Of a stretch of DNA of 64,000 bases, positions 6,341-37,176 are shown piece after piece. The notes beneath the pieces are model-generated. The model saw nothing but the letters and a program-made list of their open reading frames with translations, was not told where the DNA came from and searched no databases. How positions within the stretch are numbered: position 1 is the first letter of the stretch; every line of letters begins with the position of its first letter. This DNA is from Hamadaea flava (GTDB lineage: Bacteria > Actinomycetota > Actinomycetes > Mycobacteriales > Micromonosporaceae): NCBI RefSeq assembly GCF_024172085.1, contig NZ_JAMZDZ010000001.1, forward strand, positions 7,316,001 through 7,380,000. The letters are read 5' to 3'. The translations under genes and the position numbers were made by a program.

Positions 6341-6360
6341 TCCGGCGATGACCACGACTT

Positions 6361-7239: not shown

Positions 7240-7703
7240 ATGGCGAAGAGCCGGTCCGACGGGTCGACCACAGCGCCCAGCACGACGCCGGGCACCAGCG
7301 CGACGTCGACCGGGCGGGTCGTCTCCGCCTCGAACGCGACGAATCCCGGCCCGCTGACGCGTACGCAGAGCTTCAGCGCCGGATCCTCGTCGCCGAGGTG
7401 GTTCGCCACGGTCAGAATCTCCGCCGTCGCGGCGACGCCGGCGGCCGCGAGCTGGCGGGCATCGCGGCGCGAGCGATTGACGACGCGAAAGCCGAACATG
7501 CCGAAGCCGACGCCGACGATCGTCGTCAGCACGCCGCCGGCGAGCAGACCCCAAGTGTCCTGAGTGGACAGCTTCCCGGCTTGCGACACGTCGGCGGCGA
7601 GCAGGATCGGCCCCGGTAGGCAGATCGCCAGAAAGGCCACCCGGCACAGGAATGCGCCGACCGGGCCGATGCTGCGTTCGGCCTCACGGGGCGTACTCGT
7701 CAT
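7233..7703 (-). CDS. Small integral membrane protein, unknown function
   Basis: 156 residues with two membrane segments (about 17-37, AFLCRVAFLAICLPGPILLAA, and 51-73, WGLLAGGVLTTIVGVGFGMFGF). A basic loop (VVNRSRRDAR) follows, then a soluble C-terminal domain of beta strands (AEILTVANHLGDEDPALKLCVRVSG). The layout is reminiscent of DUF3592-like membrane proteins, but I cannot assign it. A TAGATT box 12 nt before ATG 7703 suggests a leaderless transcript. It is convergent with the SDR gene and divergent from the haloperoxidase gene. Confidence 0.65.
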   Translation of the reverse strand: MTSTPREAERSIGPVGAFLCRVAFLAICLPGPILLAADVSQAGKLSTQDTWGLLAGGVLTTIVGVGFGMFGFRVVNRSRRDARQLAAAGVAATAEILTVANHLGDEDPALKLCVRVSGPGFVAFEAETTRPVDVALVPGVVLGAVVDPSDRLFAIR

Positions 7704-7709
7704 GGGAGC

Positions 7710-7715
7710 AATCTA
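7710..7715 (-). promoter_or_regulatory. -10 box of the membrane protein gene
   Basis: TAGATT on the minus strand begins 12 nt upstream of ATG 7703, with no ribosome binding site between. Confidence 0.4.
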
Positions 7716-7795
7716 CTGCCTCCGCTTGGTGATCAAGGAGTGCGAATGGTTCGATAGTGAGCGGCGAGCTCATCGAATCCGGACGGGGAGGATTT

Positions 7796-9058
7796 ATGAC
7801 CAGGCGTACGCTCCTGCGCGTCGTCGTATCCGCAGCTTTGGCGCTGACATCCACGGTCGCGGTCAGGCCGGCGATCGCCCAGGCCACCACCACCAATCCA
7901 GTCGTCACCTGGGACGCCAACGCCCAGCAGGCCATCTGGGACGTGGCGCAGCAGCAGCCCAACGAGCAGGCCCGCAGTTTCGCGATGGTGCACGGGGCGG
8001 TCTACGACGCGGTGAACGCGATCGCGGGCAAGCCGTACCAGCCGTATCTGGTCGCGCCGGCCGCCAAGGGCACCGAATCCACCGACGCCGCGGTCGCTGC
8101 GGCGGCGTACCAGATGCTCGTGTCCTTGTTCCCGGCGCAGCAGGCCCGCCTGCAGGCGCAGTACGACGAAGCCCTGGTCGCGATCGCCGACGGTGCGGCC
8201 AAGCAGGGCGGCATCGCGGTCGGTACGCAGGCGGCGGCCGCGATGATCGCGGCGCGGCAGAACGACGGCGCGTTCGGTTCGCAGACCTGGGTGATCGGCA
8301 CGCAGCCCGGGCAGTGGCGCCCGACGCCGCCCACCTACGCCTCGGCCGGGGCGTGGACCGGGCACGTCAAGCCGTTCCTGCTCCCCAGCGCGTCGATGTT
8401 CCGCACGTCCGGCCCGCCCGCGCTCACCAGCGCTGCTTATGCTCGCGACCTCAACGAGGTGAAGCGGATCGGCGGGGTCGACAGTACGGTCCGCACCGCC
8501 GACCAGACCGAGGCGGCGATCTGGTGGCACGACCGGCACCTCGCCGAATGGGAGATCAAGCGGCAGATCGTGGTCAGCCAAGGACTGAGCCCGCTGCAGG
8601 CCGCGCGCATGTTCGCCATGGTCGACATGACCGAGGCCGACGCGCTGATCGCCTGCTACAACGAGAAGGAGTACTGGGGCTTCTGGCGGCCGGTGACCGC
8701 GGTCCAGCTCGCCGACACCGACGGCAACAAGGCGACCGCGGGCGACCCGAGCTGGATGCCGCTGCTGGTCACGCCGGCGTTCCCCGAGTACACGTCGGGC
8801 CACACCTGCTTCACCTCGGCGTCGATGACGACCTTGGCGTACTTCTTCCACCGCGACGACATCTCGTTCAGCGCGTACAGCCCGGCCGCGAACGCGACCC
8901 GGCACTACAGCAGCTTCTCGCAGGCGCTGGCCGAGGTCGTCGAGGCGCGCATCTGGGGCGGCGTCCACTTCCGCTCCGCCGACAACCAGGGCGTGCGGAT
9001 CGGCCTGTCGGTGTTCGCGTACATGGCCGCCGGACCCTACTTCAAACCCCGGCGATAA
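7796..9058 (+). CDS. Secreted vanadium-dependent haloperoxidase / PAP2-like protein
   Basis: 420 residues with an export signal (TRRTLLRVVVSAALALTS, cleavage near AIAQA). The all-alpha domain carries the phosphate/vanadate pocket signature: KEYWGFWRP (Lys and Arg), EYTSGHT (S334, G335, H336) and RIWGGVHFR (R385, H391). The order and spacing match vanadium-dependent haloperoxidases and related PAP2 phosphatases. ATG 7796 has GGGGAGGA four bases upstream and is preferred over an upstream in-frame GTG. Whether it oxidises halides, binds vanadate or is a phosphatase cannot be read from sequence; the length and KxxxxxxRP motif favour the haloperoxidase family. Confidence 0.8.
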   Translation: MTRRTLLRVVVSAALALTSTVAVRPAIAQATTTNPVVTWDANAQQAIWDVAQQQPNEQARSFAMVHGAVYDAVNAIAGKPYQPYLVAPAAKGTESTDAAVAAAAYQMLVSLFPAQQARLQAQYDEALVAIADGAAKQGGIAVGTQAAAAMIAARQNDGAFGSQTWVIGTQPGQWRPTPPTYASAGAWTGHVKPFLLPSASMFRTSGPPALTSAAYARDLNEVKRIGGVDSTVRTADQTEAAIWWHDRHLAEWEIKRQIVVSQGLSPLQAARMFAMVDMTEADALIACYNEKEYWGFWRPVTAVQLADTDGNKATAGDPSWMPLLVTPAFPEYTSGHTCFTSASMTTLAYFFHRDDISFSAYSPAANATRHYSSFSQALAEVVEARIWGGVHFRSADNQGVRIGLSVFAYMAAGPYFKPRR

Positions 9059-9072
9059 GAAGGCACAGGCGT

Positions 9073-9552
9073 TCAGTCGTCCTTGGTCTCCGTGACGGTG
9101 GCGGTGGTGCCGTCGCAGGTCACGGAGACCACGAACTCCTGCCCGCGACCGTGGCCGCCGCCGTCCTGCTTGAACTTCACCCAGGCCGTACGCGCGGGGC
9201 CGCGTTGCGACTCGTCGAGCCGGAAGCCGGTCTTCGGAGTGATCCCCTCGACGGACGCGAGCCCGTTGCGGCAGGTCGCCCACAGGCTGCCGCCCGACCC
9301 GGTGAAATGCCGCCGGGCCGACGAAGCCGCGGGGGATGCCGTCGGAGAGGCGGCGGAGGACGACGACGGGGACGAGCTGGGCTGGGCCGTCGCCTGCGCT
9401 GTCGTCTGCGCCAGCCGGTCCTCGACCTCTTGCCGCGACAACGGCCGGCCGGGGAACTCGTCGCCGAGCGAGCTGACCGCCGTGAAGCCGAGCACGGTCG
9501 CGGTGGCCACCGCAGTGACCCAACCGGCCGTGATGAGAAGCCCTCGCCGCAT
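9073..9552 (-). CDS. Membrane-anchored hypothetical protein with Ser/Pro/Ala linker
   Basis: 159 residues: one N-terminal transmembrane segment (about 5-27, LLITAGWVTAVATATVLGFTAVSS), then a low-complexity Ser/Ala/Pro/Thr linker (about 54-80), then a compact external domain with two cysteines (WATCRNG, VTCDGTTATV) that may form a disulfide. A GATACT box begins 12 nt before ATG 9552. It is divergent from the two-component system at 9656, so it may belong to that regulon; this is inference. I do not recognise the external domain. Confidence 0.6.
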   Translation of the reverse strand: MRRGLLITAGWVTAVATATVLGFTAVSSLGDEFPGRPLSRQEVEDRLAQTTAQATAQPSSSPSSSSAASPTASPAASSARRHFTGSGGSLWATCRNGLASVEGITPKTGFRLDESQRGPARTAWVKFKQDGGGHGRGQEFVVSVTCDGTTATVTETKDD

Positions 9553-9643
9553 CGGCCCAGTATCCGGGAGGCAAGGATAACGGGAGGATAAGGGCGGCTC
9601 ATGATGCCGCAAACGGGGGTCGCGGGCGTACGCGGTCGGCGGC

Positions 9644-9649
9644 TAGCGT
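9644..9649 (+). promoter_or_regulatory. -10 box of the two-component operon
   Basis: TAGCGT begins 12 nt before GTG 9656 and no Shine-Dalgarno sequence follows, so the response-regulator mRNA is probably leaderless. Confidence 0.45.
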
Positions 9650-9655
9650 GGCCGC

Positions 9656-10372
9656 GTGACGAAGGTCCTGCTGGTGGAGGACGACGCGACCATTCGCGTC
9701 GCGGTGGTGCGCGCGCTCGGGCAACGGGGTCATGCGGTGGCGACCGCGCCGGACGCGCTGACCGGGCTGCAACTGGCGGTGTCCGAACGGCCGGAGATCG
9801 TGCTGCTCGACCTGGGGTTGCCGGATCTGGACGGCCGCGAGGCGCTGCGGATGCTGCGGGCGGTCAGCGCGGTCCCGGTCATCGTCGTCACCGCCGCCGG
9901 GGCGGAGAGCGACATGGTGCGCGCACTGGACGCCGGGGCCGACGACTACATCGTCAAACCGTTCGGCGCGGACCAGCTCGACGCCCGGATCCGGGCGGTG
10001 CTACGGCGGCTCGGCAGCGAAACGGCGGCCGGGCCGATCGTCGTCGGCGGGCTCGTGGTCGACGCCCGGGCCCGGCAGGCCAGCGTCGACGGGCGGCGAC
10101 TGGAGCTGACCCCGCGAGAGTTCGACCTGCTGCACTATCTGGCGCAGCGGCCGGATCAAGTGGTCAGCAAGGCGGACCTGCTGACCCACGTGTGGCAGAT
10201 CCCGTACGCGCGGGCGGACAAGACGGTCGACGTGCACCTGTCCTGGCTGCGGCGCAAACTGGGGGAGACCGCGCTGGAACCCCGCTACCTGCACACCGTG
10301 CGGCGGGTCGGCGTACGGCTGTCCGCGCCGGAGGCGCTGGGGACATCGCCGGAGCAGGGGACGGCCGCGTGA
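9656..10372 (+). CDS. OmpR/PhoB-family response regulator
   Basis: 238 residues. The receiver domain (1-118) has the acidic triad ED-D (E8, D9, D10), phospho-acceptor D52 (IVLLDLGLPD), T79 and K101 (YIVKPFG). The C-terminal winged helix (about 130-228) has LTPREFDLLHYLAQ and the recognition region DKTVDVHLSWLRRKLG. The gene overlaps the kinase gene by four bases (GTGA), so the two are translationally coupled. Transcription appears to start at the start codon. It probably regulates its own operon and the PepSY gene downstream. Confidence 0.9.
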   Translation: MTKVLLVEDDATIRVAVVRALGQRGHAVATAPDALTGLQLAVSERPEIVLLDLGLPDLDGREALRMLRAVSAVPVIVVTAAGAESDMVRALDAGADDYIVKPFGADQLDARIRAVLRRLGSETAAGPIVVGGLVVDARARQASVDGRRLELTPREFDLLHYLAQRPDQVVSKADLLTHVWQIPYARADKTVDVHLSWLRRKLGETALEPRYLHTVRRVGVRLSAPEALGTSPEQGTAA

Positions 10373-18581: not shown

Positions 18582-18880
18582 CCTCAACGGGTGTCGGTGG
18601 CCCAGCCCGGCGGGCGCATAACGACTGCACATTTCGCGTACATCGATGCGTTGGGCCCATCCTGCCGTTCCCGAGAAGGAACCGAGGTCAGAAGGCTTGC
18701 GTGCGGCGCTCGGGGTGAAGAAGGCAACCAGCGTCGAGGCAGTTAATCGCACACCGGGCACATCTCGTTGATCGTTACATCTTTACGTATACGAAGATCG
18801 AATTTACGGTGAGGGGCATTCCCTCGAGCGGCCATCGACACGTTCCACAGGCTGCTGGTCCCGCACCGGAGGTTCGAGAC
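18582..18880 (+). promoter_or_regulatory. Promoter region of the giant subtilase gene
   Basis: No gene is seen in this 299-bp gap. Its most AT-rich part contains a dyad ATCTT-N10-AAGAT (18779-18798) with TTGATC (18770-18775) just upstream, a plausible promoter/operator. GGAGG for the next gene is at 18868-18872. Confidence 0.35.
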
Positions 18881-21800
18881 ATGCGCGTCGCCCGAAGCTG
18901 GTTCACCAGAGCGGTGCTGCCGCTGCTCGCCATCACCCTGGTCGGCGCGCCGGCACCGATCGCCGCCGTGGCGGCACCATCCGCGCAGTCGGCGGCATCG
19001 GCGGCGGGGACCTCGCCCCAGCCCGGGGTTCTCGACCTGCTGAGCGGGCTCCCGGTCGAGGCGACAGACTTCGGCGCCGAGCCGGTAACCAAGGGCACCC
19101 AGCCGCCGAGCGGCGTGGCCGCAGAGGTACGCGCGGCACTGGCCGACGGCGGCACCGCCAACGTCATCATCCGGCTGCGAGCGCAGCCAGACCTGACCGC
19201 GATCACGCGGCGGGCGGCCGACGAGGGCCGGACGGCGGCCGAGACCACGCGCCGACAGCTCACCGTGGCCAGCACCTACATTGGACGGCAGGCCGTGGAG
19301 CGGCAGGTCGCCGATGCCGCTCAAAGCGCACGAGCGCGTACCGTGCGCGACGGCATGCGGCAAACCGCCGACGCCTCCCAGCCGGCCGTACGCGGGCTGC
19401 TCGCCAGCCAAGAGAAGGCGGGCCATGCTCGCGCCGTCAAGCCGTACTGGATCTTCAACGGCTTCGCCGCCACCGTCGACAAGCAGGCGCTCGACGCGCT
19501 CGCCAGCCATCCCGACGTCGCGAGCATCACGCCCGACGTCGAGATCCGGCAGGAGGAGCCCATCGCACCGGCGTCAGGTGAACCGCTGCTGCCGACCTGG
19601 AGCCTCGAGTCGATCAACGCACCGGAAACCTGGGGCGAGTACGGCGTACGCGGCAACGGTGTCGTCGTGGGCATCATGGACGGTGGCGCGGACGGCGGCC
19701 ACCCGGCGCTGCATGACTCGTGGCGCGGTGTCACCGGCGACCCGGCGGCGAGCTGGTACGTGCCGACGGGGGAGAACTACCCGACGCCCGGCGACGGCGG
19801 CGGCCACGGCACCCACGTCACCGGCAGCATCGTCGGCTCCGCGCCGGGCGAGCTGACGGGCGTGGCGCCGGGCGCGCAGTGGATCGCCGCGAAGATCTTC
19901 CGAGACTCCGGCAGCACGACCGAGTCGATCATCCACGACGCGTTCCAGTGGATGATGGCGCCCGGCGGCGACCCGTCCGCAGCGCCCGACGTCGTCAACA
20001 ACTCTTGGGGCGCCGACGCGCCGAACGCCACGACGTTCTGGAACGACCTGCTCGCCTGGGAGGCCGCGGGAATCGTCGCGGTGTTCGCCAACGGCAACAA
20101 CGGACCCGGGCCGGGCACCGTCGGTTCGCCCGGCAGCTATCCGCACGTCATCGGCATCGGCGCGACCGACCAGCAGGACCGCATCGCCGGCTTCTCCAGC
20201 CGCGGGCCGGTCACCTGGGACGGCGTCACCCACATCAAGCCCGACGTCAGCGCACCCGGCCACCTGATCCGCTCGACCTGGCCACGGCAGTTGAGCGCGT
20301 CCGGATACAACACGATCTCGGGCACCTCGATGGCCACGCCACACGCCACCGGCGTCGTCGCCCTCATGCTCTCGGCCAATCCGGAGCTGACCGTCGCCGA
20401 GGTACGCCAGATACTCACGGGCACGGCGAGAGTCGAGTCGCACATGGGCGCGGTGCCCAACAACGCCTACGGCACGGGGATCATCGACGCGTACGCCGCC
20501 GTCACCCGGGCCGCATACTCGGGCACCGTCACCGGCCGGGTGACCGGGCCGGACGGCAAACCGCGGGCGGCCACGGTCACCATCGCGGGAGCGTTGACGA
20601 CCGCCGACCCGCAGACCGGTGCGTACTCGCTGGTGGCACCGGCCGGCGCGCAGGACGTCACCGTCAGCGCGTACGGGTTCGTCACCCACCGTGGCAAGGT
20701 CGCCGTCACCATCGGTCAGTCGCTGACGCACGACGTGTCCCTCGTCGCCGCGCCCGACCGGCGGGTCGTCGGCACGGTCACCGGCCCGTCCGGTGCGGTC
20801 CGGGGCGCCCGGATCACCGTCAGCGGCACCCCGCTCGACGTCGCGACGACGGACGCCGATGGACGGTTCGAGCTGAGGATCGCCGAGGGCGTCTACCAGC
20901 TGCGTGTCGCCGCGGCCGGGTTCAAACCCGCCACCGTCGAGACCACTGTAGACGGTGACGAGAGCCTCCGATTCACCCTGGAGGCATTGAACCAGCCGAC
21001 CGCAGCGGGCTGGGCGCAGTACCAGAACAACCCGAGCCGGGCCGGCCTGTCCGGTGATCGGATCGCGGGCCGCACTCTGCAGCCGGCCTGGAACGCGGCC
21101 ACGGGCAGCTCGGTGGTCTTCGCCAGTCCGGTCATCGCCGACGGCCGGGTGTTCCTCGGCTCCGACGCCGGGCGGCTGACCGCGCGCGACGTCGCAACCG
21201 GGCGACAGCTGTGGGCCTTCCAGACCGGTCAGGCATTGCGGGGCAGCCCGGCCGTCGCGGACGGACTGGTGTTCACCGGTGGCGGGCTGAGCGGCGGCAT
21301 CTACGCCCTCGACATCGCCACCGGCAAGGTGCGCTGGCAGGTGCCCACCCCGGATCGCTTGACCGTTTACACGGCGCCTTCGGTCGTGAACGGCGTCCTG
21401 TACGCCGCGACCGGGCCGACGCAAGGACGCGCGGACACGGTGTTCGCGCTCGACGCCGCCACCGGCCGGCAGCTCTGGGCCACCGACGTCGGCACGTCGG
21501 TCTTCGCCGGCCCAGCCGTCGGCAACGGCCTGGTCATCGTCGGCAACGCCGACGACGGGCAACTCATCGCGCTCGACGCGGCCACCGGAACCCGGAAGTG
21601 GACCTACACCCGCACCGGTGACTACTTCATCGGCGGAGCGAGCATCGTCGGCGGCACCGTCTACGTCACGACGACCGACGGCAACAGCGGCGGCAGCATG
21701 CTCGCCCTCGACGCCGCCAGCGGCGCGCTGCGCTGGGAGAACAACACCCACGGCGACGGCCAGGGCAGCACCCCGGCGGTCTACGGCGACCTCGTCATCG

Positions 21801-24800
21801 CCGGGTCGCACGGGCTCGGCTTCGTCGCCGCCTACGACGCGGCGACCGGCAAAGCGGTCTGGCACTACGGGCTCAACGGTGCGGTCAGCGCGTCCGTGCT
21901 CGTCAGCGACGACGGCTACGTGATCGGCGGCGCCCAGCTCGACCGGCGGATCTGGGCGCTCGACGCGGCCACCGGCGACCTGGTCTGGCAGGCCACCACC
22001 GGCGCGAACGTGACCGCCTCCCCGGCGTACGCCCAAGGACTGCTGGTCACCGCGGACGTCGACGGGAAGGTCTACGCGTACCACCCGACCGGCAAGATCA
22101 CCGGCACCGTCACCGGGCCGTCCGGCCCGATCGCCGCCACGGTACGCGTACAGGAGACCGGTGCGCAGGTCGCCACCGATCCGGCCACCGGCCGGTTCGA
22201 GCTGACCCATCAGCCCGGGCGTGTCACGGTCGTCGTCACCGCGTACGGACTGGCCGGTCAGACCCGCGAGATCGACGTGGTCGCGGGCGAGACCAGCACG
22301 CTGGACGCCGCTCTCGTCTCCGTCGGCACCGGCGCGATCCGCGGTGTGGTGCGCGACGAGGCCGGGGCGCCCCTGCCGGGTGCCACCGTCACCCTGGAGT
22401 CCACCCCGGTCGGTCCGGCGACCAGCGGCACTGCGGGCGAGTTCACGTTCGCGGACGTCGCAGCCGGCACATATCGCGTCACGATCGCGCTCACGGGCTA
22501 CGCGCCGCAGACGCGGTCCGTGACCGTCGTGGCCGGGCAGACCGTGGCGGTCGACACCACCCTGAAGCGGTATGACCTGGCGGTCGTCGGCGACTACGAG
22601 GGACGCATCGCCGCCGAACTCACCTCGCTCGGGTACTCCGTCCAACCCGCGACCTACGCCGAGGTGACTGCCCGGCCAGGTGATTTCCGCGCGGTCGTGG
22701 CCAACGGCACCAGTGGCAGCGATCCCGGACCGGACGCGTTCCGGGCCTTCCTCACCGCGACGGACGCGGCGGGCACCAGCGTGGTCTTCCTCGACCAGTG
22801 GTCGCTGGGCTACGGAGCGATCAACCAGCTGAGCAAGCACACTGGCGATCCGCAGGCCCTGCCGGGAGACCTGAACACCTCCGGACGCATCTCCGTCGTC
22901 GCCACGACCGCGCACCCGCTGACCGCGGGCCTCACTCCCGGCGCGCGCACCGAGATCCTCGCGCCGCGCGGCGCGTGGTCGGCCTTCACCGGCTACTCCG
23001 GCACCACGGTCGCCACCCTGAACACCGACGAATCCGGTGACGTCGGCAGCGCCATCGCCTTCGACCCGCGCGGCACCGAAAGCACCCACGTGCTGCTCGG
23101 ATCGCTGGCCGCCGCGGCCTCGTGGGGGGTCCCGGCCGACGACTGGCTGCCTGCCGCGCGCACCATCCTCAAGAATGCCATCGGGTACGCCATCGACGCG
23201 CGTTACGGCGCTGTCGAGGGCACGGTCACCGATCCGTCGGGTACGCCACTGGCGGGAGTGACGGTGGCGGTGCCCGCGACGGGTGAGCGGACCACGACGG
23301 CCGCCGACGGCACCTATCGGCTGCTCGTCACCCCCGGCACGCCGACGCTGCGGTTCACCCGGGTCGGCAGCGCACCGTTCGAGCAGACGATCACGGTGAC
23401 GGCGGGCGACTTGATCACCGTCAACCCCACCCTGGCGGTCTCCGGCGCCGGCGGCGTACGCGGCGTCGTCACCAGCGGACGCGACGGCTCACCGGTGAAC
23501 GGCGCATCCATCGTGGTCGAGGGCACCGATCTCGCCGCGACCACAGCCGCCGACGGTGCATACGCCGTCGACCTGCCGGCCGGTACGTACCAGATCCGGA
23601 CGAGCGCTGCCGGTCATCTGAGCACGACGGCCACGGTCGAGGTCCGGGCCGGCGCCGAAACGGTGTCGAATGTAGAGCTGGCTGCGGCGCCCCGGGTCGC
23701 GGTGCTGGGCGACTACTCCGGCGACAGCGTCGTCGCCCTGATGCGGGCCAACGAGATCGCCGCGGAGCCGATCGACTGGACCGATGTCGGGCGGCTGCCG
23801 CAGTTGGACGTCGTCGTCTTCAACGACCCGACCGACCCGGGCGCGGCCGTATTCGCCGGCTTCCTCACGGCCATGGACGCCGCTTCGGTGAGCGGGGTCT
23901 TCCCCGACGATCGCTACTCCACTGACGGCGGTGCGCGCCTGCTGCGCAAGTACCTGGCCGATCCGAGCGGGACGCTGCCCGTCAGCGGCGAAGGCATCAT
24001 CTCGTACGCGCCGACCGTCGCCGGGCATCCGCTGTTCGCCGGTCTGCCCGAGCGGCCGGAGATCTTCCGCGCCGGTCGGACCGCCGCGGCGATCGTGGGT
24101 TACTCCGGTACGCCGCTGGCCGACGTGCACTCCGAGACGGGCGGCCGGCGTGGGGTCGCCGCCGCGTACACGGTGCGTACCACCGGCAGCGTGCACCTGG
24201 TGCTCGGCGGCTTCGCCGGCACGACGCTGCAGGGGCCGAAGGACGACTGGACGCCCGACGGTGTCAAGCTCTACCTCAACGCGATCCGGTGGACCGCCGC
24301 ACCGGGGCTGGCGGGCGCGACCGGCCGGGTCGTCGGCGTCGACGCCACGGCGCTGCCGGCGACCGTCGAACTTGTCGGCGGCACGCGCCGGGTGACGACC
24401 GACGCCGCCGGTGAATACACGTTCCCGCTGGAACCCGGCACACACAGACTGCGGTTCAGCTCCTTCGGCTACACCCCGGTCGAGCGTGAGGTGACCGTCG
24501 AGCGCAACGGAACGGCCAGGCTGGATGTCGAGATGCAGCCGGGGACCGTCGGCGGTATCGCCGGGACGATCACCGCGCTGACCGACATCGAAGCCAGCGG
24601 CCGGCAGGCGAGCACCGCCGGGCCGGTCGACGGTGCGACGATCACCCTGCTGGGCACCACCGCGCACACCGTCACCGACAGCACCGGGCACTACCGGCTG
24701 CCGCTGGTCGAACCCGGGTCATACGAGCTGGAGGTGGCCTCCGACGGCTACGTCCGCACCCGGATACCGGTGACCGTGATCGGCGGCGGCGAGACCGGCG

Positions 24801-27800
24801 CCGACGCCGCACTGCGCCCGTCGCCGGTGGTCGGCGTCCTCGACGACTTCGAGGGCCGGCTGGCCGCATACCTCTCGTACTGGGGCTACGAGCCGCGTCC
24901 CGTCGGGTGGACCGACACGGCGGCACTCGGCGACCTCGACCTGCTCATCGGCAACATGGCGACCTACACCGGGACCGACCCGGGCGCAGCGGGCTGGGCC
25001 GCCTTCGACGACGCGCTCAACCGCTCCGGCGTACCGGCCTTGTGGCTGGACCAACTGGGGCGCGGATCGTTCCGCTACCTGAAGGCGTACGAGCAAGATC
25101 CTGGTGTGGAAGGTGAGGGACGTAACGACGGCACCGTGACCGCGCACGCGACCGTGACCGGCCACCCGCTGCTCGCGGGGCTGCCGGCGTCGTTCGAGCT
25201 GGTGCCGCCGAACAAGGAGTACTCGTGGTTCGGTGAGTTCAGCGGGACCACGATCGCGACCGTGACCTCAGACGACCCGGCGGCGGGCGGCGGCCTCGTG
25301 GGCGTGCGGCACCGCGGGGCGCGGGCCGTCGACGTGCTGCTCGGCACGTTGTCGGTGAGCACCTACGGATACCCGGGCTACGGCGACCATCCCGGGCTCA
25401 CCTGGACCGGCGGCGCGGAGCGGCTGCTGCGCAACGCGCTGTCCTACGCGCTGGACACCGACGGGCGCGGCGGCGAGGTGCGCGGCACCCTGCGTACCGC
25501 GGCCCAGGCACCGCTCGCGGGCACGGTCAAGGTCGTCGAGACCGGCGACACGGTGCCCGCGCGGTCCGGTGACGGCACCTTCGTCGTGCCGCTGCCCGCC
25601 GGCCGGTGGACCCTTCAAGCGTCGAGCTTCGGGTACGCCGACGCCACGACCGTCGTCGACATCACCGCGGGCGGCGTGGTGACACTGCCGTTGACACTCA
25701 CCAGCGACCCGGCCGGGACGATCAGTGGGATCGTCACGGGACCGGCGGGCCCCATCGTGGGGGCGGCCGTCGCCGTCGCCGGTACGCCGCTGAGCGCGAC
25801 CACTGGCTCCGACGGCTCGTACACGATCATCGGTGTGCCGGCGGCCACCTGGACGCTGCGGGTGACCGCTGCGGGCCACCAAGTCGCCACGCGTACCGTC
25901 ACGGTGCCCGCCGACGGGACCTTGCCGGTGAACGTCACACTGGTGGCCTCGCATCGGGTCGCCGTCATCGCCGACTCGTCCAACGCGATCACCGGACTGC
26001 TGCAGCGCGAGGGCTATGCCGTCGAGCAGTTCACAGCGGCCCAGATCAGCACGCTGGTCCCCCGAGTGAGCGAGTTCGATCTGATCATCGTCAACGGATC
26101 GGTGAGCACCTCGTACCGTCCGGCGCTGCTCCAGATGATCAACGAAGCGGCCGCCCGGGGCGTATCGACGCTCTATGGTGGACAGTGGGGCGGCGCTGCC
26201 GTCGGTGCGCTCTCCGACGTGCGCCACGATCCCACCGCCGTCGCCTACGACTTCGAGCCCACCGACATCGCGTACGTCGTCGGCAAGCCGCACCCGATCT
26301 TCGCCGGGTTCCCGGCCGGCGAGCCGGTCGTCGTGCTCACCAACCCCGGCGACAACCAGCAATGGATGACGTACTCGGGATACAGCGGCACCACCGTCGC
26401 CGACGCGCGATCGGCGACGACCGACCTCGGCAACGCGGTCGGTTACCGGTTCACCTCGGGGTCCAGCGTCGAGGTGCTGCTCGGCGGCTTGTCGGCCGGC
26501 TCCTACGGCCGGCCCGGCACACGGTGGACACCGGCGGCCGAGCAGATCTACCGCAACGCGGTCGCGTGGGCGGTCGACGCGCGACAAGCCGCCGTAGCCG
26601 GCGTGGTGACCGGCGCCGAGGGCACTCCCATCGGCGGGGTGCGGGTCACCGCCGTCGAGGCCGGCGCCAGCACGGTGACCGCGGCGAACGGCGCCTACAC
26701 CCTGGGCCTGGCCGCCGGCACACACACGATCCGGATCGAGGCATTCGGCTACGAGACGACCGAGCGTTCGGTGACCATGCCGGAGAGCGGGACACTGACG
26801 CTCGACATCGCCCTGGTGCCGCTGCCCCGAGGCGTCGTCACCGGCACCGTCCGCTCGACGGACGGCACGGTCATACCGGCCGCCACCCTGACGGCCCACG
26901 GCGTACAACCCTGGTCGGCGACCACCGGCGAGGCAGGAACGTTCACCGCGGACCAGTTGCTCGAGGGCGACTACACCGTCGACGTGACAGCGCCGGGACA
27001 CCTGCCAGCGACGGCGTCGGTGACGGTCACCGCCGGCGCGGTCGCCCGGCTCGACGTGACGCTGCGGCCCTACGACGTCGGCGTGCTCGGCGACGCCGAC
27101 GGAACACTGGTGGCGTTCCTGCGGGCGAACGGCCTGGCGGCCACGGAACTGCCCTGGTCGCGCAGCCTCGATCTCGACGGCTACGACACCGTGGTGGTCA
27201 ACGGCGGAACGCCGGACAAGGCGACCTACGACGCCGTGGTGGCCGCCGCGGACGCAGCCCGGACCAGCCTCGTCTACACCGGCACCTGGGGCGCGGACCG
27301 AGGCGGCCTGCGGCTGCTCGAACGTCACACCGGCAGGATTTCCGTCACCGGGCAGGGCTACGGCGAAGGCGCCGTGACGCTGGCCGGCTTCGACCGCGGG
27401 CACCCGCTGTTCGCCGGGCTCGCCGATCCGGCCGAGCTGATCGTCGCGGGCGGCTACTACAGCATCGCGGGCGGCTACGCCGGGAAGCCACTGGCCGAGC
27501 TGTCAGTCCGCCGCCCGGACGGGTCGGTGGTACGCGGCCTGGGCGTCGGCTTCGACTGGCGAACGACCGGCAGCGTCGAGGTCGTGCTGTCCGCCAGCGC
27601 CGTGACCGAAGCGGTCGGCCCTGACCTGGGCTGGACCGAAGCGGGCCGCCGTCTGCTGCTGAACGCGGTCTCCTGGACGCGCACCGTCTCCATGCCACGC
27701 CCGGCACCTCCGGTCGTGAGCGCACCGGCGGTGACCCTCGACGACTCGATCACGGTGTCAGGCACTGCGGACTGGCCGTCGACCGTGCACCTGCGCATCG

Positions 27801-28231
27801 GCACGAGAGACGTGGCCACCACCTTGACCGCGCAGGACGGCACGTGGACGGCCAAGGTGCCGCTGTCGCTGGGCCGCAACGTGCTGACCGCGACGGCGAC
27901 GAACGCGGCCGGTACGTCCGCCGCAACCACGCCCGTCGTCATCCAGCGCTGGCATCCCGACTGGACACTGCCCGGCAGTGGCCGATCGCGCCCAGTCCAG
28001 CTCCGGCTCGACGGCATCACACCCGGCGGAGCGCCGGCCGACAACGCGATCCTCGTGGTACGCAATGCCCTCGGCGTGGAAACGGCGCGCCTGCCGCTGA
28101 AATGGACGACGGACCAGTTCTACCTGGTCGTGCTGAAGAACCTGCCGACCGGCACGTATTCGCTCAGCGCGGAGCTGACCGTCGGCGGCACCACCGTCGT
28201 CGCCGACGGCCCGGAGGTGGTGATGGGCTGA
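18881..28231 (+). CDS. Giant secreted S8 protease with PQQ propeller and five CpD-CpD-Rossmann units
   Basis: 3,116 residues, one of the largest non-assembly-line proteins to expect here. In order: signal peptide (1-32); inhibitor-like propeptide (about 80-225); S8 subtilase domain with D267, H309 and S483 (GIMDGG, GGGHGTHV, ISGTSMATPH) and oxyanion-region Asn406; two CpD domains (nt 20520-20990); a PQQ/quinoprotein-type beta-propeller of about 360 residues with repeated ALDAATG blades (21000-22090). Then come five units of about 370 residues, each two CpD domains plus a Rossmann-like ThuA/glutamine-amidotransferase-like domain marked by V(V/I)(V/F)N, HPL(F/L)AGL and a closing W...NA; units begin near 22090, 23210, 24310, 25470 and 26590. 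A bacterial Ig-like domain (27700-27965) and a terminal beta domain finish the protein. ATG 18881 is preceded by GGAGG. The Rossmann domains show no obvious catalytic Cys, so they may bind ligands or act structurally. Confidence 0.85.
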   Translation: MRVARSWFTRAVLPLLAITLVGAPAPIAAVAAPSAQSAASAAGTSPQPGVLDLLSGLPVEATDFGAEPVTKGTQPPSGVAAEVRAALADGGTANVIIRLRAQPDLTAITRRAADEGRTAAETTRRQLTVASTYIGRQAVERQVADAAQSARARTVRDGMRQTADASQPAVRGLLASQEKAGHARAVKPYWIFNGFAATVDKQALDALASHPDVASITPDVEIRQEEPIAPASGEPLLPTWSLESINAPETWGEYGVRGNGVVVGIMDGGADGGHPALHDSWRGVTGDPAASWYVPTGENYPTPGDGGGHGTHVTGSIVGSAPGELTGVAPGAQWIAAKIFRDSGSTTESIIHDAFQWMMAPGGDPSAAPDVVNNSWGADAPNATTFWNDLLAWEAAGIVAVFANGNNGPGPGTVGSPGSYPHVIGIGATDQQDRIAGFSSRGPVTWDGVTHIKPDVSAPGHLIRSTWPRQLSASGYNTISGTSMATPHATGVVALMLSANPELTVAEVRQILTGTARVESHMGAVPNNAYGTGIIDAYAAVTRAAYSGTVTGRVTGPDGKPRAATVTIAGALTTADPQTGAYSLVAPAGAQDVTVSAYGFVTHRGKVAVTIGQSLTHDVSLVAAPDRRVVGTVTGPSGAVRGARITVSGTPLDVATTDADGRFELRIAEGVYQLRVAAAGFKPATVETTVDGDESLRFTLEALNQPTAAGWAQYQNNPSRAGLSGDRIAGRTLQPAWNAATGSSVVFASPVIADGRVFLGSDAGRLTARDVATGRQLWAFQTGQALRGSPAVADGLVFTGGGLSGGIYALDIATGKVRWQVPTPDRLTVYTAPSVVNGVLYAATGPTQGRADTVFALDAATGRQLWATDVGTSVFAGPAVGNGLVIVGNADDGQLIALDAATGTRKWTYTRTGDYFIGGASIVGGTVYVTTTDGNSGGSMLALDAASGALRWENNTHGDGQGSTPAVYGDLVIAGSHGLGFVAAYDAATGKAVWHYGLNGAVSASVLVSDDGYVIGGAQLDRRIWALDAATGDLVWQATTGANVTASPAYAQGLLVTADVDGKVYAYHPTGKITGTVTGPSGPIAATVRVQETGAQVATDPATGRFELTHQPGRVTVVVTAYGLAGQTREIDVVAGETSTLDAALVSVGTGAIRGVVRDEAGAPLPGATVTLESTPVGPATSGTAGEFTFADVAAGTYRVTIALTGYAPQTRSVTVVAGQTVAVDTTLKRYDLAVVGDYEGRIAAELTSLGYSVQPATYAEVTARPGDFRAVVANGTSGSDPGPDAFRAFLTATDAAGTSVVFLDQWSLGYGAINQLSKHTGDPQALPGDLNTSGRISVVATTAHPLTAGLTPGARTEILAPRGAWSAFTGYSGTTVATLNTDESGDVGSAIAFDPRGTESTHVLLGSLAAAASWGVPADDWLPAARTILKNAIGYAIDARYGAVEGTVTDPSGTPLAGVTVAVPATGERTTTAADGTYRLLVTPGTPTLRFTRVGSAPFEQTITVTAGDLITVNPTLAVSGAGGVRGVVTSGRDGSPVNGASIVVEGTDLAATTAADGAYAVDLPAGTYQIRTSAAGHLSTTATVEVRAGAETVSNVELAAAPRVAVLGDYSGDSVVALMRANEIAAEPIDWTDVGRLPQLDVVVFNDPTDPGAAVFAGFLTAMDAASVSGVFPDDRYSTDGGARLLRKYLADPSGTLPVSGEGIISYAPTVAGHPLFAGLPERPEIFRAGRTAAAIVGYSGTPLADVHSETGGRRGVAAAYTVRTTGSVHLVLGGFAGTTLQGPKDDWTPDGVKLYLNAIRWTAAPGLAGATGRVVGVDATALPATVELVGGTRRVTTDAAGEYTFPLEPGTHRLRFSSFGYTPVEREVTVERNGTARLDVEMQPGTVGGIAGTITALTDIEASGRQASTAGPVDGATITLLGTTAHTVTDSTGHYRLPLVEPGSYELEVASDGYVRTRIPVTVIGGGETGADAALRPSPVVGVLDDFEGRLAAYLSYWGYEPRPVGWTDTAALGDLDLLIGNMATYTGTDPGAAGWAAFDDALNRSGVPALWLDQLGRGSFRYLKAYEQDPGVEGEGRNDGTVTAHATVTGHPLLAGLPASFELVPPNKEYSWFGEFSGTTIATVTSDDPAAGGGLVGVRHRGARAVDVLLGTLSVSTYGYPGYGDHPGLTWTGGAERLLRNALSYALDTDGRGGEVRGTLRTAAQAPLAGTVKVVETGDTVPARSGDGTFVVPLPAGRWTLQASSFGYADATTVVDITAGGVVTLPLTLTSDPAGTISGIVTGPAGPIVGAAVAVAGTPLSATTGSDGSYTIIGVPAATWTLRVTAAGHQVATRTVTVPADGTLPVNVTLVASHRVAVIADSSNAITGLLQREGYAVEQFTAAQISTLVPRVSEFDLIIVNGSVSTSYRPALLQMINEAAARGVSTLYGGQWGGAAVGALSDVRHDPTAVAYDFEPTDIAYVVGKPHPIFAGFPAGEPVVVLTNPGDNQQWMTYSGYSGTTVADARSATTDLGNAVGYRFTSGSSVEVLLGGLSAGSYGRPGTRWTPAAEQIYRNAVAWAVDARQAAVAGVVTGAEGTPIGGVRVTAVEAGASTVTAANGAYTLGLAAGTHTIRIEAFGYETTERSVTMPESGTLTLDIALVPLPRGVVTGTVRSTDGTVIPAATLTAHGVQPWSATTGEAGTFTADQLLEGDYTVDVTAPGHLPATASVTVTAGAVARLDVTLRPYDVGVLGDADGTLVAFLRANGLAATELPWSRSLDLDGYDTVVVNGGTPDKATYDAVVAAADAARTSLVYTGTWGADRGGLRLLERHTGRISVTGQGYGEGAVTLAGFDRGHPLFAGLADPAELIVAGGYYSIAGGYAGKPLAELSVRRPDGSVVRGLGVGFDWRTTGSVEVVLSASAVTEAVGPDLGWTEAGRRLLLNAVSWTRTVSMPRPAPPVVSAPAVTLDDSITVSGTADWPSTVHLRIGTRDVATTLTAQDGTWTAKVPLSLGRNVLTATATNAAGTSAATTPVVIQRWHPDWTLPGSGRSRPVQLRLDGITPGGAPADNAILVVRNALGVETARLPLKWTTDQFYLVVLKNLPTGTYSLSAELTVGGTTVVADGPEVVMG

Positions 28232-32586: not shown

Positions 32587-35500
32587 TCAGGTGGTCGGTG
32601 GGACGAACCGCACGGTGATGCCCGGGCGGGCGTACGCGCCGTTGAAGTCGTTCACGTATTGCAGGAAGCGCGAACCAGTGGCGTCTTCGATCCCGACGTT
32701 GGCGGGATAGGTCGCGACGGTCTGATACCCGGTCGCCACCTGCCCGTTCTCGTAGAGGGTGACGGAGAACGTGTTGCGTTGGCTCGTCCACTTGTCCTGC
32801 ACGTTGCGCCACTCGATGATCAGCCGCCGGTTCGTCCCGGACCCGGCCACCGAGGTGCGTACGCTCGCCGACCCGTCGACCACGAAGTCACCCCACAGCG
32901 CGTAGACCGCCGCGTTGGGCGTACCGGTGCTCGGCAGCCACGACATGACCGGCGCCGGGACGGCGTCGGTGAAGCTGACGAACCCGTTCGTCGAGACGTA
33001 CACGCTGCTGTACTGCGTACCGTAGAAGCTGAACGTGAAGGGAAGCGGCACCGTCGCGACCGAGTCGTCGCCGGTGAGCGCGAGCACGGTCTCGCCGGTC
33101 TCCCAGACGGATGCCTCGGTGCGGCACGTGTAGCCGTAGCCGTCGGCGTAGCGGGTCATGGTCGTGTCGATGACCTGATCCGCGGTGATGACCACGTCGG
33201 TGGTGCGGGAGCGCAGGCAGCCGTCGCCGTAGGCGGCGAGCAGCAGGGTGTGCGTGCCGTCGCCGACTCCGTCGAGCCGGTAGGAGCCGTCGGCGGCGGT
33301 CGTGGTCTCGACGGTCAGCCCGTTGGCCCTGATCTTGGTGTTGACCCCGGCCAGCGGTACGCCGGTGGCGTCCGTGATTCGGCCGGTGATCGTGTTCACC
33401 GGCAGGGCGAGATCGGCGATAACGGTGGTTCCGACGCCGGGCACTGTGACTGTCCGGCTGGTCGTCGAGGTGCCCTTGACGACCTCGACCGTGTAGTCCC
33501 CGGGTTGCAGCGGCAGGACGTAGTGGCCGGTCGCGTCGGCGTGGACCTCTTTCACCTTGCTGCCGTTGCGGAGCCCGCGCACGATCGCGTCGGCGACCGC
33601 GGTGCCGTCGTCAGCGTCGGTGACGGCGCCTTGGACCTGGCCGGGTGGCGTGAACCGCACGGCGAGCCCGTCGCGGATCGGATAGAACGTGTCGTCGTAG
33701 CGGTAGCCGACCGTCCCGGTCGCGTTCTCGATGCCCAGACGCGCCCGGTAACTGCCCAGCGAGTCGCGTACGCGTATCTCGACGGTGCCGTCCTCGCCGA
33801 GCACGATCTCCATCGACACCCGGTCGAGGGTGAATTCGACGAGCGCGTTGCGCCACTCGACGACGAATCGACGGTTGGGCGCCTGGCCGGTGACGGCGGT
33901 GCGGACGCTGCCCGCGCCGTCGATCATGAGGTCCTGCCAGAGGGCGTAGATCGCGGCGTTGGGCGTACCCGGTGTGGGGAAGCTGTCGCTGATCTCGCCG
34001 ACGTCGTTGCCGGTGAAGCTCAGGAACCCGTTGGTCGACACGTACGCCGACGTGTACGCCGTTCCGTACAGCCGGAACGGGAACGGCAGGGTCACGCCGG
34101 TGGTGGCTTCGTCGGCGGTCAGCGGCAGCACCCCGGTCGCGTCGACGTACGCCGCGTTCACCGGCCGGCACTGGTAGCCGAAGTCGTCGTACCGGGTGGT
34201 CACGGCGAAGTCGGCGGACTCGTCCCCGTCGACGGTCATCGTCGAGGCGCTGCCGAACACGCACGGGCTGCCGACCGAGACGTTGTACGAGCCGAGCGGC
34301 ACGTTCGTCATCCGGTACGCGCCGGTGTCGTCGGTGGTCGCCGTGAACTCGGCCAGCCCGGTGAACAACCGCACCCGCTGCCCCGACGCCGGATTGCCCC
34401 GGTCGTCCCGGACGATCCCGCTGATGGTCTTGCCGGACCCGGACATCGCCAGATTGCGTACGGCGACCTCGCCCTCCGCCGTCAGCGTCACGTCCGCGCT
34501 GCCCATCAGATAGCCCGGCAACGTGTACGTCAGACTGTAGGCGCCCGCCGGCAGCGCGACCGCGTACTTCCCAGTGTCGTCGGTGGTCTTGGTCGCGACG
34601 AACTCACCCGCCCGATACGCCGAGACCGTGACCCCGCTGAGCGCATGGCCGTCCTCGGCGTCGGTCACCGTGCCGGTCACGGTCGCCGGCGGCCGGAACA
34701 CCAGCGTCGCGCCGGGCTCCAGGGCCACTTCGTTGTACGCGTACTGCAGGCCGACTGTGCCGGTGGAGTCCTCGACGCCGATCGACGCGCTCGCACCATG
34801 GGCCTGCGTCTCGGCCGACAGTGACTGGTAGCCGAACTGGACCCGGCCGTTCTCCGACAACACCGCCTCGAACGTGACCCGCCCCGGCAACCCGTAGAAC
34901 GTCGCGTTGCGCCACTCGACCACGAATCGGCGATTCGGGGCGGTGCCGACGACCGTGGTGTAGATCCCGGCGGCCGAGTCGACCACCAGGTCGTCCCAGA
35001 ACGGATAGAGCCCGGCGTTCGGGTACGCGGTGGACGGGATCGGACGGTTCGTCGAGGAGTACACCGCGCGGTCGAACGTCAGGAAGCCGTTCGTGGTCAC
35101 CGTGACCGTCGTGTAGGTCCGGCCGTAGAGCGGGAACGGGAACGGTGTCGCGATCGTCGTCAGCGCCTGATCGCCGGTCAGCGCCAGCAGATCCGTCCCC
35201 GGCACCCATTCCGACGCCGTGGCCTGGCACGTGTAACCCGAAACATCCGGTCTCGGCGGCACCGCCAGGTCGGTGACCTCATCGCCGTCCACGACGACGC
35301 GTTGCAGGGTGGCCGCGGTGCAGCCGCCGTCGGTCACGCTGACGTCGTAGGCGCCGTCCGGCACGCCGGTGAAGTGGTACGCCCCGTCGACGCCGGTGAC
35401 GACGGACGGAATCGGCGTGCCGTCGAGGCGTACGGTGACGCCGTGCACCGGCCCGCCGCCGACGTCCCGCACGACACCGGTGACGGCGTGCCGGGGCGCC

Positions 35501-37176
35501 TGCCCCAGTGCGACGTTGACCACGACCGTGGTGCCGGTGGTCACCTGGACGGTCCGCTGCGCGGTCAGGAACGCGAACTTCGCATACGTCATCTGGTACG
35601 CGCCGACCGACAACACCATCCGATAGGTGCCGTCCGCCGCAGTGGCGACCCCGTAGCGCGACGACGATCCGCTGCCGACGTTCACGCTGACCCCGCCGAG
35701 CGGCAAGCCGGTCACCGCGTCCGTCACCACGCCGGACAGGACACCGGTCGGACCACGTGGCGAGCGTTCGACTGCGGCGTACGCGTCGAGGCGGCCCTCG
35801 CCCCACACGTTGTTGTCGGCGATGGTGCCACCGCACGAGGTGTCGGCGGTGTCGATGGCGCTCTGGTCCAGCAGATTGCGAGTCAGTCCTACGTCACCGC
35901 GTAGGGCGGGCGCGGCCGACCACATCAGTGCGACGACTCCGGCGACGTGCGGGGTCGCCATCGACGTGCCGCTCCACGACTCGTACCGGCCGCCCGGAAC
36001 ACTGGAGCGGATGCCGGAGCCGGGGGCGGCGATGTTCGGCTTGATCTCCCCGTCGAACACCGACGCGCCCCGACTGGAGAACGGTGCGATCGAGTTCGAG
36101 CTGTCGAACGCGCCGACGGCGTACGAGTTCTGGTAATCGCCGGGCGATCCGGCGGTGCCGCAACCCGGACCCGAATTACCGGCCGCGAACGCGGGGAAGA
36201 TACCGACCGACGTCCACGCGTTGATGATGTCCTGGTAGAAGTCGTCGCCCGGTCCGCCGCCCCAGGAGTTGTTCACGATGTTCGGCGCCAGGTCGGGACG
36301 CGGGTTGTTGCCGGAGAGATCGGTCGGGGCCATCACCCACTGCCCGGAGCGGATCAGCGCCACGTCGGAGCAGGAGTCGCTCTCACAGCCCTTCGCCGAG
36401 ATCCACTTAGCCCCGGGTGCGACGCCGATCACCGTGCCGGCGCCGTCGTCACCGGTCATCGTGCCGGTCACATGCGTACCGTGACCATTGTTGTCGCACG
36501 GCACAGGACTGGGACAGATGTGGCTGGGGTCGAACCAGTTGTAGTTGTGGTTGAAGGCGCCACCGAGGTTGCCGCGATACTGCCGCGTCACCGCGGGATG
36601 GGTGAAGTCGACCCCGGTGTCGATGCTCGCCACGACCACGCCTTCGCCGGACACGCCGAACTGCGCCCAGGTCTGCGGTGCGCGGATCCGGTCGAGGTTC
36701 CAGTCGACCGCCGCGTCAGCGGAGACACCGGTGATCGGCGTGGGAATGTGCCGCTCGCCGGCCAGGCGTACGCGCCGCACGTCAGCGCGACCGGCCAGCT
36801 CCCGGATCACCTCCGCCGAGGCACTGCGAACCAGGACGGTGTTGACGATCCAATACGGCTCGTACGCCACCTTGCGGCGGGCCAGCGCTGTGCGTACCCC
36901 TGCCTGAGTGTTCTCCGCGGTGGTGATGAGCGCCTGGCGGCCCCGGGCCACCTGCTCGCCGTGAGTGCGACCGGCAGCCGGACCACTGAGCGTCGCCTTC
37001 GCGCGGAGCATGACGAACACGTCGGCGGTGTGCTCTTGCGCGAGGCGTGTCGTCACCGCGGCGTCGACCGTGGCGGGGAGTGGGCGGGCGGTGGGCGTGG
37101 CGCCGGTCAGCCCGCTCAGCACGAGCAGCGGGACCAACATCCCGGCGAACGGGAAACGACGACGGCCCCGCATCAT
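32587..37176 (-). CDS. Secreted S8 protease with three CpD-CpD-beta units
   Basis: 1,529 residues. A signal peptide (about 12-30) precedes an inhibitor-like propeptide (about 38-140) and an S8 domain (about 175-470) with D186 (SIDTGVD), H232 (NGHGTHVTG), Asn334 (AAGNSGPG) and S405 (SGTSMATPH). From residue 478 there are three tandem units of about 350 residues, each two carboxypeptidase-regulatory-like (CpD) domains plus a beta-rich domain containing (T/S)TNGFL(T/S)F, PNA(A/G)(I/V/L)Y and (R/L)(F/I)(V/I)(V/I)EWRN, somewhat like NIDO/adhesion sandwiches. Cysteine pairs recur at the CpD/beta junctions (GYTCQ, GYQCR, GYTCR). The gene begins inside the stop codon of the M4 gene (ATGA), so the two proteases are made together. 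The layout parallels the larger subtilase at 18881-28231 with a different third module. Confidence 0.87.
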   Translation of the reverse strand: MMRGRRRFPFAGMLVPLLVLSGLTGATPTARPLPATVDAAVTTRLAQEHTADVFVMLRAKATLSGPAAGRTHGEQVARGRQALITTAENTQAGVRTALARRKVAYEPYWIVNTVLVRSASAEVIRELAGRADVRRVRLAGERHIPTPITGVSADAAVDWNLDRIRAPQTWAQFGVSGEGVVVASIDTGVDFTHPAVTRQYRGNLGGAFNHNYNWFDPSHICPSPVPCDNNGHGTHVTGTMTGDDGAGTVIGVAPGAKWISAKGCESDSCSDVALIRSGQWVMAPTDLSGNNPRPDLAPNIVNNSWGGGPGDDFYQDIINAWTSVGIFPAFAAGNSGPGCGTAGSPGDYQNSYAVGAFDSSNSIAPFSSRGASVFDGEIKPNIAAPGSGIRSSVPGGRYESWSGTSMATPHVAGVVALMWSAAPALRGDVGLTRNLLDQSAIDTADTSCGGTIADNNVWGEGRLDAYAAVERSPRGPTGVLSGVVTDAVTGLPLGGVSVNVGSGSSSRYGVATAADGTYRMVLSVGAYQMTYAKFAFLTAQRTVQVTTGTTVVVNVALGQAPRHAVTGVVRDVGGGPVHGVTVRLDGTPIPSVVTGVDGAYHFTGVPDGAYDVSVTDGGCTAATLQRVVVDGDEVTDLAVPPRPDVSGYTCQATASEWVPGTDLLALTGDQALTTIATPFPFPLYGRTYTTVTVTTNGFLTFDRAVYSSTNRPIPSTAYPNAGLYPFWDDLVVDSAAGIYTTVVGTAPNRRFVVEWRNATFYGLPGRVTFEAVLSENGRVQFGYQSLSAETQAHGASASIGVEDSTGTVGLQYAYNEVALEPGATLVFRPPATVTGTVTDAEDGHALSGVTVSAYRAGEFVATKTTDDTGKYAVALPAGAYSLTYTLPGYLMGSADVTLTAEGEVAVRNLAMSGSGKTISGIVRDDRGNPASGQRVRLFTGLAEFTATTDDTGAYRMTNVPLGSYNVSVGSPCVFGSASTMTVDGDESADFAVTTRYDDFGYQCRPVNAAYVDATGVLPLTADEATTGVTLPFPFRLYGTAYTSAYVSTNGFLSFTGNDVGEISDSFPTPGTPNAAIYALWQDLMIDGAGSVRTAVTGQAPNRRFVVEWRNALVEFTLDRVSMEIVLGEDGTVEIRVRDSLGSYRARLGIENATGTVGYRYDDTFYPIRDGLAVRFTPPGQVQGAVTDADDGTAVADAIVRGLRNGSKVKEVHADATGHYVLPLQPGDYTVEVVKGTSTTSRTVTVPGVGTTVIADLALPVNTITGRITDATGVPLAGVNTKIRANGLTVETTTAADGSYRLDGVGDGTHTLLLAAYGDGCLRSRTTDVVITADQVIDTTMTRYADGYGYTCRTEASVWETGETVLALTGDDSVATVPLPFTFSFYGTQYSSVYVSTNGFVSFTDAVPAPVMSWLPSTGTPNAAVYALWGDFVVDGSASVRTSVAGSGTNRRLIIEWRNVQDKWTSQRNTFSVTLYENGQVATGYQTVATYPANVGIEDATGSRFLQYVNDFNGAYARPGITVRFVPPTT

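Follow-up and report, generated by a model that had tools for sequence, protein, structure and literature searches.

The gene P0001 of Hamadaea flava, which lies in a 64,000-nucleotide stretch of contig NZ_JAMZDZ010000001.1 (hereafter the window), encodes a modular subtilase in which a Rossmann-like domain of predicted ThuA/GATase1-like fold, here called R, is present in five tandem copies. The tail of this protein consists of six CpD-CpD-X units, where CpD is a carboxypeptidase-regulatory-like domain, and where X is a beta-propeller once and then the R domain five times. The design is real and old, it is rare as far as searched, and it is built of known folds. We propose, with a probability of roughly one half, that the R domains are glycan-binding modules carried on CpD spacers, which would tether a secreted protease to polysaccharide.

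The features of P0001 are collected in Table 1. The first-pass annotation of the window had claimed a single open reading frame at this position, and the frame does indeed run without an internal stop, in a genome of 8.86 Mb that forms a single contig. While the mechanical ORF list begins the frame at GTG 18809, the ATG at 18881 was taken as the start. Within the gene, two long ORFs on the antisense strand (1,171 and 711 aa) were taken as shadow frames of high-GC coding DNA. Judged by eye, the signal peptide is probably cleaved after the motif AVAA. In motif and hydropathy scans of P0001, both an LPXTG motif and a C-terminal hydrophobic segment were absent, and no cell anchor was seen; past the signal peptide, the hydropathy scan gave one borderline hydrophobic window, at residue 2281.

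Table 1. Features of P0001 and of the neighbouring subtilase gene, in window positions.
Feature	Positions	Strand	Basis
GGAGG, Shine-Dalgarno-like	18868..18872	+	read from sequence, 8 nt upstream of ATG at 18881
Modular subtilase P0001, entire gene, 3,116 aa	18881..28231	+	ORF translation
Predicted Sec-type signal peptide, residues 1-32	18881..18976	+	hydropathy windows starting at residues 10-16
Prodomain region, Inhibitor_I9 at residues 174-222	18977..19585	+	Pfam, I9 E 6.2e-6
S8 catalytic domain; D267, H309, N406, S483	19586..20500	+	Pfam and alignment
CpD pair 1, residues 551-621 and 631-698	20531..20974	+	local CpD search
Beta-propeller, BamB/PQQ_2-type repeats, residues about 709-1070; X of unit 1	21005..22090	+	Pfam
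CpD pair 2, residues 1074-1145 and 1155-1228	22100..22564	+	local CpD search
R1, ThuA-like domain, residues 1229-1442	22565..23206	+	copy comparison, profile search, tree
CpD pair 3, residues 1447-1518 and 1528-1600	23219..23680	+	local CpD search
R2, ThuA-like domain, residues 1600-1810	23678..24310	+	copy comparison, profile search, tree
CpD pair 4, residues 1814-1884 and 1912-1978	24320..24814	+	local CpD search
R3, ThuA-like domain, residues 1978-2195	24812..25465	+	copy comparison, profile search, tree
CpD pair 5, residues 2202-2273 and 2282-2354	25484..25942	+	local CpD search
R4, ThuA-like domain, residues 2352-2569	25934..26587	+	copy comparison, profile search, tree
CpD pair 6, residues 2573-2645 and 2654-2728	26597..27064	+	local CpD search
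R5, ThuA-like domain, residues 2728-2938; best-conserved copy versus g24 lineage	27062..27694	+	structure prediction, Foldseek
Ig-like (Glucodextran_B-like), residues 2954-3020	27707..27955	+	Pfam E 7.9e-4, 19.7 bits, below cut-off of 27
C-terminal domain, type unassigned	27956..28228	+	no LPXTG, no C-terminal hydrophobic segment
Second large subtilase, 1,529 aa	32590-37176	-	4.4 kb downstream of P0001, convergent

The Pfam model Peptidase_S8 (PF00082) matches residues 258-533 of P0001 with an E-value of 1.1e-55. The triad D267/H309/S483 had already been named from the sequence, and these residues, together with the oxyanion residue N406, are identical in all ten aligned sequences, that of the window included. 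P0001 is probably a secreted, active subtilase, and its pre-pro-S8 part would act as a conventional extracellular serine protease. Following the S8 domain, CarboxypepD_reg (PF13620) exceeds its curated cut-off over 12 stretches (E 3.1e-145), and a local search of P0001 counted 12 CpD domains, arranged as six pairs. Pfam additionally matched PQQ_2 and Inhibitor_I9, and the repeats suggest a propeller of the BamB/PQQ type. The first-pass annotation had described five CpD-CpD-Rossmann units plus an internal propeller. All of these components are present, but the reading of the propeller as an insertion within the array was replaced, on the basis of the local CpD search, by one in which it is the X domain of the first of six units. 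In each unit, the paired CpD beta-sandwiches would serve as spacers and the X domain as a recognition module.

The five R copies of P0001 start at intervals of 1113, 1134, 1122, and 1128 bp, which agrees with the steady period of 1,100-1,160 bp noted previously, and across eight array proteins measured the period is 1110-1170 bp. The copies were also correctly described as diverged from each other, as copies 2-5 share only 30-35% identity with copy 1. R1 matches the other four copies with E-values from 9.2e-15 to 2.7e-24, and in a search of its own genome these four are its sole matches. This mutual similarity, together with the conservation of the repeats in other genera, excludes chance as their origin. 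As for the motifs said to be common to the copies, W...NA closes all five, but HPLFAGL is exact only in R2 and R5, with HPLTAGL, HPLLAGL, and HPIFAGF in the remainder.

None of the five R copies has a credible Pfam family. The ThuA model (PF06283) matched none of them at E-values up to 10, in a search whose HMMER filters drop most weak matches, and the best match of a profile search against PDB sequences, at E 0.079, was not credible. Structure prediction and profile comparison nevertheless point to the ThuA/glutamine-amidotransferase-like Rossmann domain that had been proposed for these segments. The AlphaFold2 model of R5, modelled singly from an alignment of 41 array copies, is Rossmann-like and has a mean pLDDT of 93.7 and a pTM of 0.92. 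Its first Foldseek match is 2a9v, the amidotransferase subunit of GMP synthase, and it matches the ThuA-like structure 1t0b with an E-value of 2e-6 and a TM of 0.65-0.66 over the query; the list also holds the ThuA-like structures 4pxy, 4e5v, and 4jqs, other GATases, GH42 enzymes (5e9a, 4oif, 6lvw), and IFT52 (5fms). Furthermore, hhalign aligned the R profile with four ThuA-family sequences over 181 columns (probability 94.8, P 5.1e-8), and a profile built from the five copies, searched in the 150 family genomes, found two genuine ThuA proteins, identified as such by Pfam, at E-values of 1.4e-5 and 2.7e-5. Two weak matches of this profile, a periplasmic binding protein (L053) and a protein without a Pfam match (L050), were set aside.

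A model of two consecutive units contains well-formed individual domains (pLDDT 86.7); because its pTM is 0.54, no fixed arrangement between units can be claimed. Foldseek ranked 8aa2_G seventh for this model (E 7.6e-8, 475 columns), a 435-residue chain of the levan utilisome which, from its length and fold, we take to be the chain of the surface glycan-binding protein (SGBP). With an rmsd of 20.2 and TM values of 0.22/0.36, the order of the domains may match, but their orientation does not. The six matches ranked above it are sandwich, pilin, or teneurin proteins, and most of the other top matches are pilins or sandwich proteins.

The five-copy protein was found in other actinomycetes, namely in nine genomes besides that of the window: one Hamadaea MAG, five Jiangella genomes, and a further three genomes from the family of the window. 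Eight of these orthologues are complete, and all eight have exactly five R copies in the same order, within open frames of 3,109-3,189 residues; the ninth (G080, from the same genus as the window) is split between two contigs that hold four copies and one copy, respectively. Family-wide searches of 150 genomes, in which the best 15-20 candidates per genome were scored, gave R-profile matches in 17 genomes, the window's own included. The array itself was present in the window genome and four others of this set, complete in three genomes of the genus g24 (G023, G054, G074) and split in G080, and two other genomes of the window's genus (G039, G061) gave no R-profile match. Among the best candidates of each of these 150 genomes, the S8 domain found matches at E-values up to 1e-85 only in the window genome and the same four array genomes.

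A scan of the genomes of 84,980 species with R5-specific patterns, from which records close to the window genome may be missing, returned eight loci, from the Hamadaea MAG, the five Jiangella genomes, and two Micromonosporaceae MAGs; three of them (L062, L066, L068) are repeats of L037, L038, and L039, and each such pair was counted as one locus. All five Jiangella genomes carry five array copies, and J. asiatica has one extra R domain in another gene. In 396 genomes across the phylum, with the best 7 candidates taken from each, a search with R matched only the window genome and G267, and another search matched only the window genome. Beyond Actinomycetota, coverage is by the R5-pattern scan and a plasmid search, in which single-copy forms may be missed; tblastn of R5 against plasmids gave no match. 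As far as searched, then, the string is not one of the commonly annotated architectures: R belongs to no Pfam family, the orthologues number nine, and among the matches listed the architecture is not described in the titles or abstract openings of open-licence papers.

Identity between the orthologues and the window protein is 70-97% in the S8 domain, 60-88% in the propeller, and 35-93% in R1-R5. Relative to the g24 lineage, R5 is 57-63% identical while R1-R4 are 35-49% identical, with R1 and R2 at 35-39%; relative to Jiangella, this contrast is absent, with R1-R4 at 59-73% (R3 at 69-73%) and R5 at 61-64%. When 50 array copies were placed in a tree with 12 single copies (L045 was left out) and two ThuA rows, R1, R2, R3, R4, and R5 each fell on one side of a branch, giving five position clades; six label changes, the minimum, suffice for its seven groups, as against 42.5 in shuffles. 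The weaker clades are those of R2 (88/76) and R3 (88/38), and the program warns of long branches meeting in R2. Same-position copies are also mutual best matches, narrowly so for R2 (99-113 bits versus 96). A recent or homogenised repeat is ruled out by the position clades and these best matches. The division of R1-R5 into position clades shows an old array that has not been homogenised, in keeping with its initial description as an old, maintained repeat, and most likely it formed before these lineages parted and has not been reshuffled since.

Within R1-R4, Hamadaea groups with Jiangella, of the Jiangellales, and not with g24, of its own family (100/97, 100/100, 100/100, and 96/92, respectively), and in R5 the support for this grouping is weak (91/49). 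Because the R copies root each other, the grouping looks like a transfer of the array between actinomycete orders, with differential loss as the alternative.

P0001 appears to follow a wider rule, S8-[CpD-CpD-X]n, in which X is exchangeable and in which n is 6 for P0001. Its genome contains 34 S8 matches, P0001 included, some of which are pieces of one frame. The four closest other S8 proteins (44-48% identical in S8) all begin with S8-CpD-CpD; the next closest, L117 (45%), was outside the domain scan. These proteins resemble P0001 in the S8 domain and the CpD pair that follows it but differ in X. The subtilase at 32590-37176 has three CpD-CpD-nidogen-like units after S8, with the repeats read by eye, and Pfam sees nidogen in it once and weakly (E 1.2e-6). 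The X domains of L114 are jelly-roll-like, judged by eye, and Kelch; those of L115 are nidogen-like, again by eye, and an FG-GAP propeller; and that of L116 is a reelin-like domain. The CpD-CpD-X pattern is also a simple way to read large actinomycete subtilases.

The R domain also occurs singly, in subtilases of the form S8-CpD-CpD-R, which share S8, the CpD pair, and a homologous R with P0001 but possess only one R. The 19 single-copy matches (17 family-wide, one phylum-wide, and one from J. asiatica) are spread over three genera within the family, a single genome further away, and J. asiatica; 13 were examined, and five were scanned with Pfam, of which two have Kelch tails, two have CARDB tails, and one, from J. 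asiatica, has neither. In J. asiatica, locus L118 (3-13130, minus strand) has four S8-matching frames in a row, and the frame at 6055-9903 carries the single R. The Kelch-type single-copy subtilases are rich in cysteine, unlike P0001. Four single-copy proteins (L044, L041, L042, and L052) have one cysteine just before and one just after R (residues 679 and 903 in L044); this pair suggests a disulfide staple, which the array protein would do without.

P0001 contains no cysteine in its 3,116 residues. Of nine long orthologous frames listed, seven likewise have none, and the two others have a single one, solely upstream of the first plausible methionine. Without cysteine, there is no GATase nucleophile, and amidotransferase activity was rejected for P0001. 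The histidine of the closing GH of ThuA is found in only 1 of 50 array copies, as compared to 12 of the 13 single-copy relatives examined and both ThuA proteins. Similarly, where 11 of 13 single-copy forms have an aspartate, the arrays mostly have a hydrophobic residue. The lack of cysteine and the loss of the ThuA-type histidine together make amidotransferase or ordinary ThuA chemistry unlikely. With the single-copy relatives that keep the histidine, array forms can be compared naturally with forms that look catalytic.

Other residues of the array are strongly conserved. In R5 numbering, H114, G141, P187, W191, and A202 occur in all 41 aligned array copies, D11 in 39, and N47 in 36; an aromatic position, 76, is Trp in only 24 of the 41. 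The HP motif is common to the arrays and two aligned ThuA proteins, and each R position additionally keeps conserved residues of its own. In the predicted secondary structure of the R5 model, the strand at 6-9 is followed by D11 and that at 43-46 by N47, with W191 between the 171-176 strand and the final helix. By comparison with the GATase fold, D11, N47, and W191 may be placed at the pocket end of the sheet.

ThuA-like proteins are common and poorly understood. The family (PF06283; 1t0b, 4e5v, 4jqs, 4pxy) and the R domain are alike in fold, in the HP motif, and in the 181-column profile alignment, whereas the array copies have no Pfam ThuA match, have lost the closing-GH histidine in 49 of 50 cases, and are arranged in tandem on a protease. 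The ThuA fold has here been amplified to a fixed five-slot array with loss of the ThuA histidine.

Glycan binding is the most likely role of the R domains given the precedent of published ThuA-like glycan binders. Residues 141-364 of Agd3 (CBM87) are described as a ThuA-like domain without a Cys-His-Glu triad that binds galactosaminogalactan through D242, W292, and W344 (PMC7229062). By that description it resembles R in having a ThuA/GATase1 fold without the triad on an enzyme acting extracellularly, and it differs in that its host enzyme is a fungal deacetylase. The levan SGBP is presented as an Ig-Ig-ThuA-like protein that binds levan through W297 and W359 (PMC7618045). In this Bacteroides protein (8aa2), the ThuA-like domain comes after a pair of Ig-like sandwiches, an order that may be comparable with one CpD-CpD-R unit, although the CpD domain of P0001 is a transthyretin-type sandwich and not strictly Ig; as described there, the SGBP differs in being lipidated, in belonging to a SusCD complex, and in comprising one unit with no protease. 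A carbohydrate-binding or bridging role is suggested for the ThuA-like domain of PelA in PMC12022489, and PMC4562250 places a ThuA-GSDH-PKD-CBM6-PKD protein within a cellulosome-like multienzyme complex.

If this precedent applies, the five R domains would be non-enzymatic and would keep the protease attached to a surface of polysaccharide, be it the cell envelope, a biofilm, or biomass, with the five-copy tail giving avidity and reach. Each of R1-R5 retains a sequence signature peculiar to it, so that each position would be specialised, and the five may differ in specificity. A recognition tail is also consistent with the sister subtilases, whose post-CpD domains, assigned partly by eye, are of extracellular interaction types (nidogen-like, reelin-like, jelly-roll-like, and Kelch). 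Counted against the glycan reading are position 76, where a glycan platform might use an aromatic residue but Trp is limited to 24 of the 41 copies, the first Foldseek match being 2a9v, which is an amidotransferase subunit rather than a glycan binder, the missing cell anchor, the lack of a recognised polysaccharide gene among the ten neighbouring frames scanned, and the ThuA-like core of an enzyme, dimethylformamidase, as reported in PMC7686228. Should the modules bind glycans, they would add a set of binding domains without a Pfam family, and the targeting of the protease would parallel the logic of polysaccharide-degrading enzymes. More speculatively, the R domains could represent a new and so far uncatalogued family of binding modules with the ThuA fold, arranged in tandem, whose five positions have diverged to read five different glycan motifs and deliver the protease, in a fixed five-slot cassette passed between actinomycete orders.

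We consider it unlikely that the R domains are structural spacers or oligomerisation domains, which would merely lengthen or cluster the protease. A role of this kind is ascribed to the GATase-like domains of GH42 beta-galactosidases, and GH42 enzymes and IFT52 are among the Foldseek matches of R5; the near-constant period in eight proteins and the five copies in all eight complete orthologues would likewise suit spacers. However, each position has its own conserved residues, and relative to g24 R5 is far better conserved than R1 and R2, while pure spacers need not differ; this contrast is lineage-dependent, since relative to Jiangella R3 exceeds R5.

It is similarly doubtful that the tail is an exosite or adhesion array that binds protein substrates or partners in place of glycans. 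In favour of this reading, domains of the kinds that follow the CpD pair in the sister subtilases (nidogen-like, reelin-like, Kelch, and propeller) often bind proteins in other settings. Agd3 and the levan SGBP, which carry ThuA-like domains in secreted or surface proteins, instead bind glycans in their published descriptions (PMC7229062, PMC7618045). Finally, it is very unlikely that the R domains are ThuA-type enzymes acting on keto-sugars or glycosides, such that a protease would carry a five-fold sugar-processing array: the fold and profile similarity to ThuA, the invariant H114, and the shared HP motif would fit such enzymes, but the closing-GH histidine is lost, the aspartate of the single-copy forms has mostly become hydrophobic, and P0001 is free of cysteine.

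Among the frames scanned, glycan binding by the array finds no counterpart in the gene neighbourhood. In Pfam searches, the ten neighbouring frames comprise an ABC transporter, FtsX, TetR, a sigma factor, the second subtilase, and five frames without a family, and no polysaccharide gene, SusCD transporter, or glycan-uptake gene was recognised among them. When the frames of the window outside the gene were compared with the flanks (0.7 to 13 kb) of 13 loci, no conserved operon was detected at an E-value of 1e-15, a weak negative for flanks of such length. Two frames departed from this: the second subtilase, whose matches were to the arrays themselves, and the frame at 53611-54372, about 25 kb away, which is 40% identical to a frame in the flank of L040.
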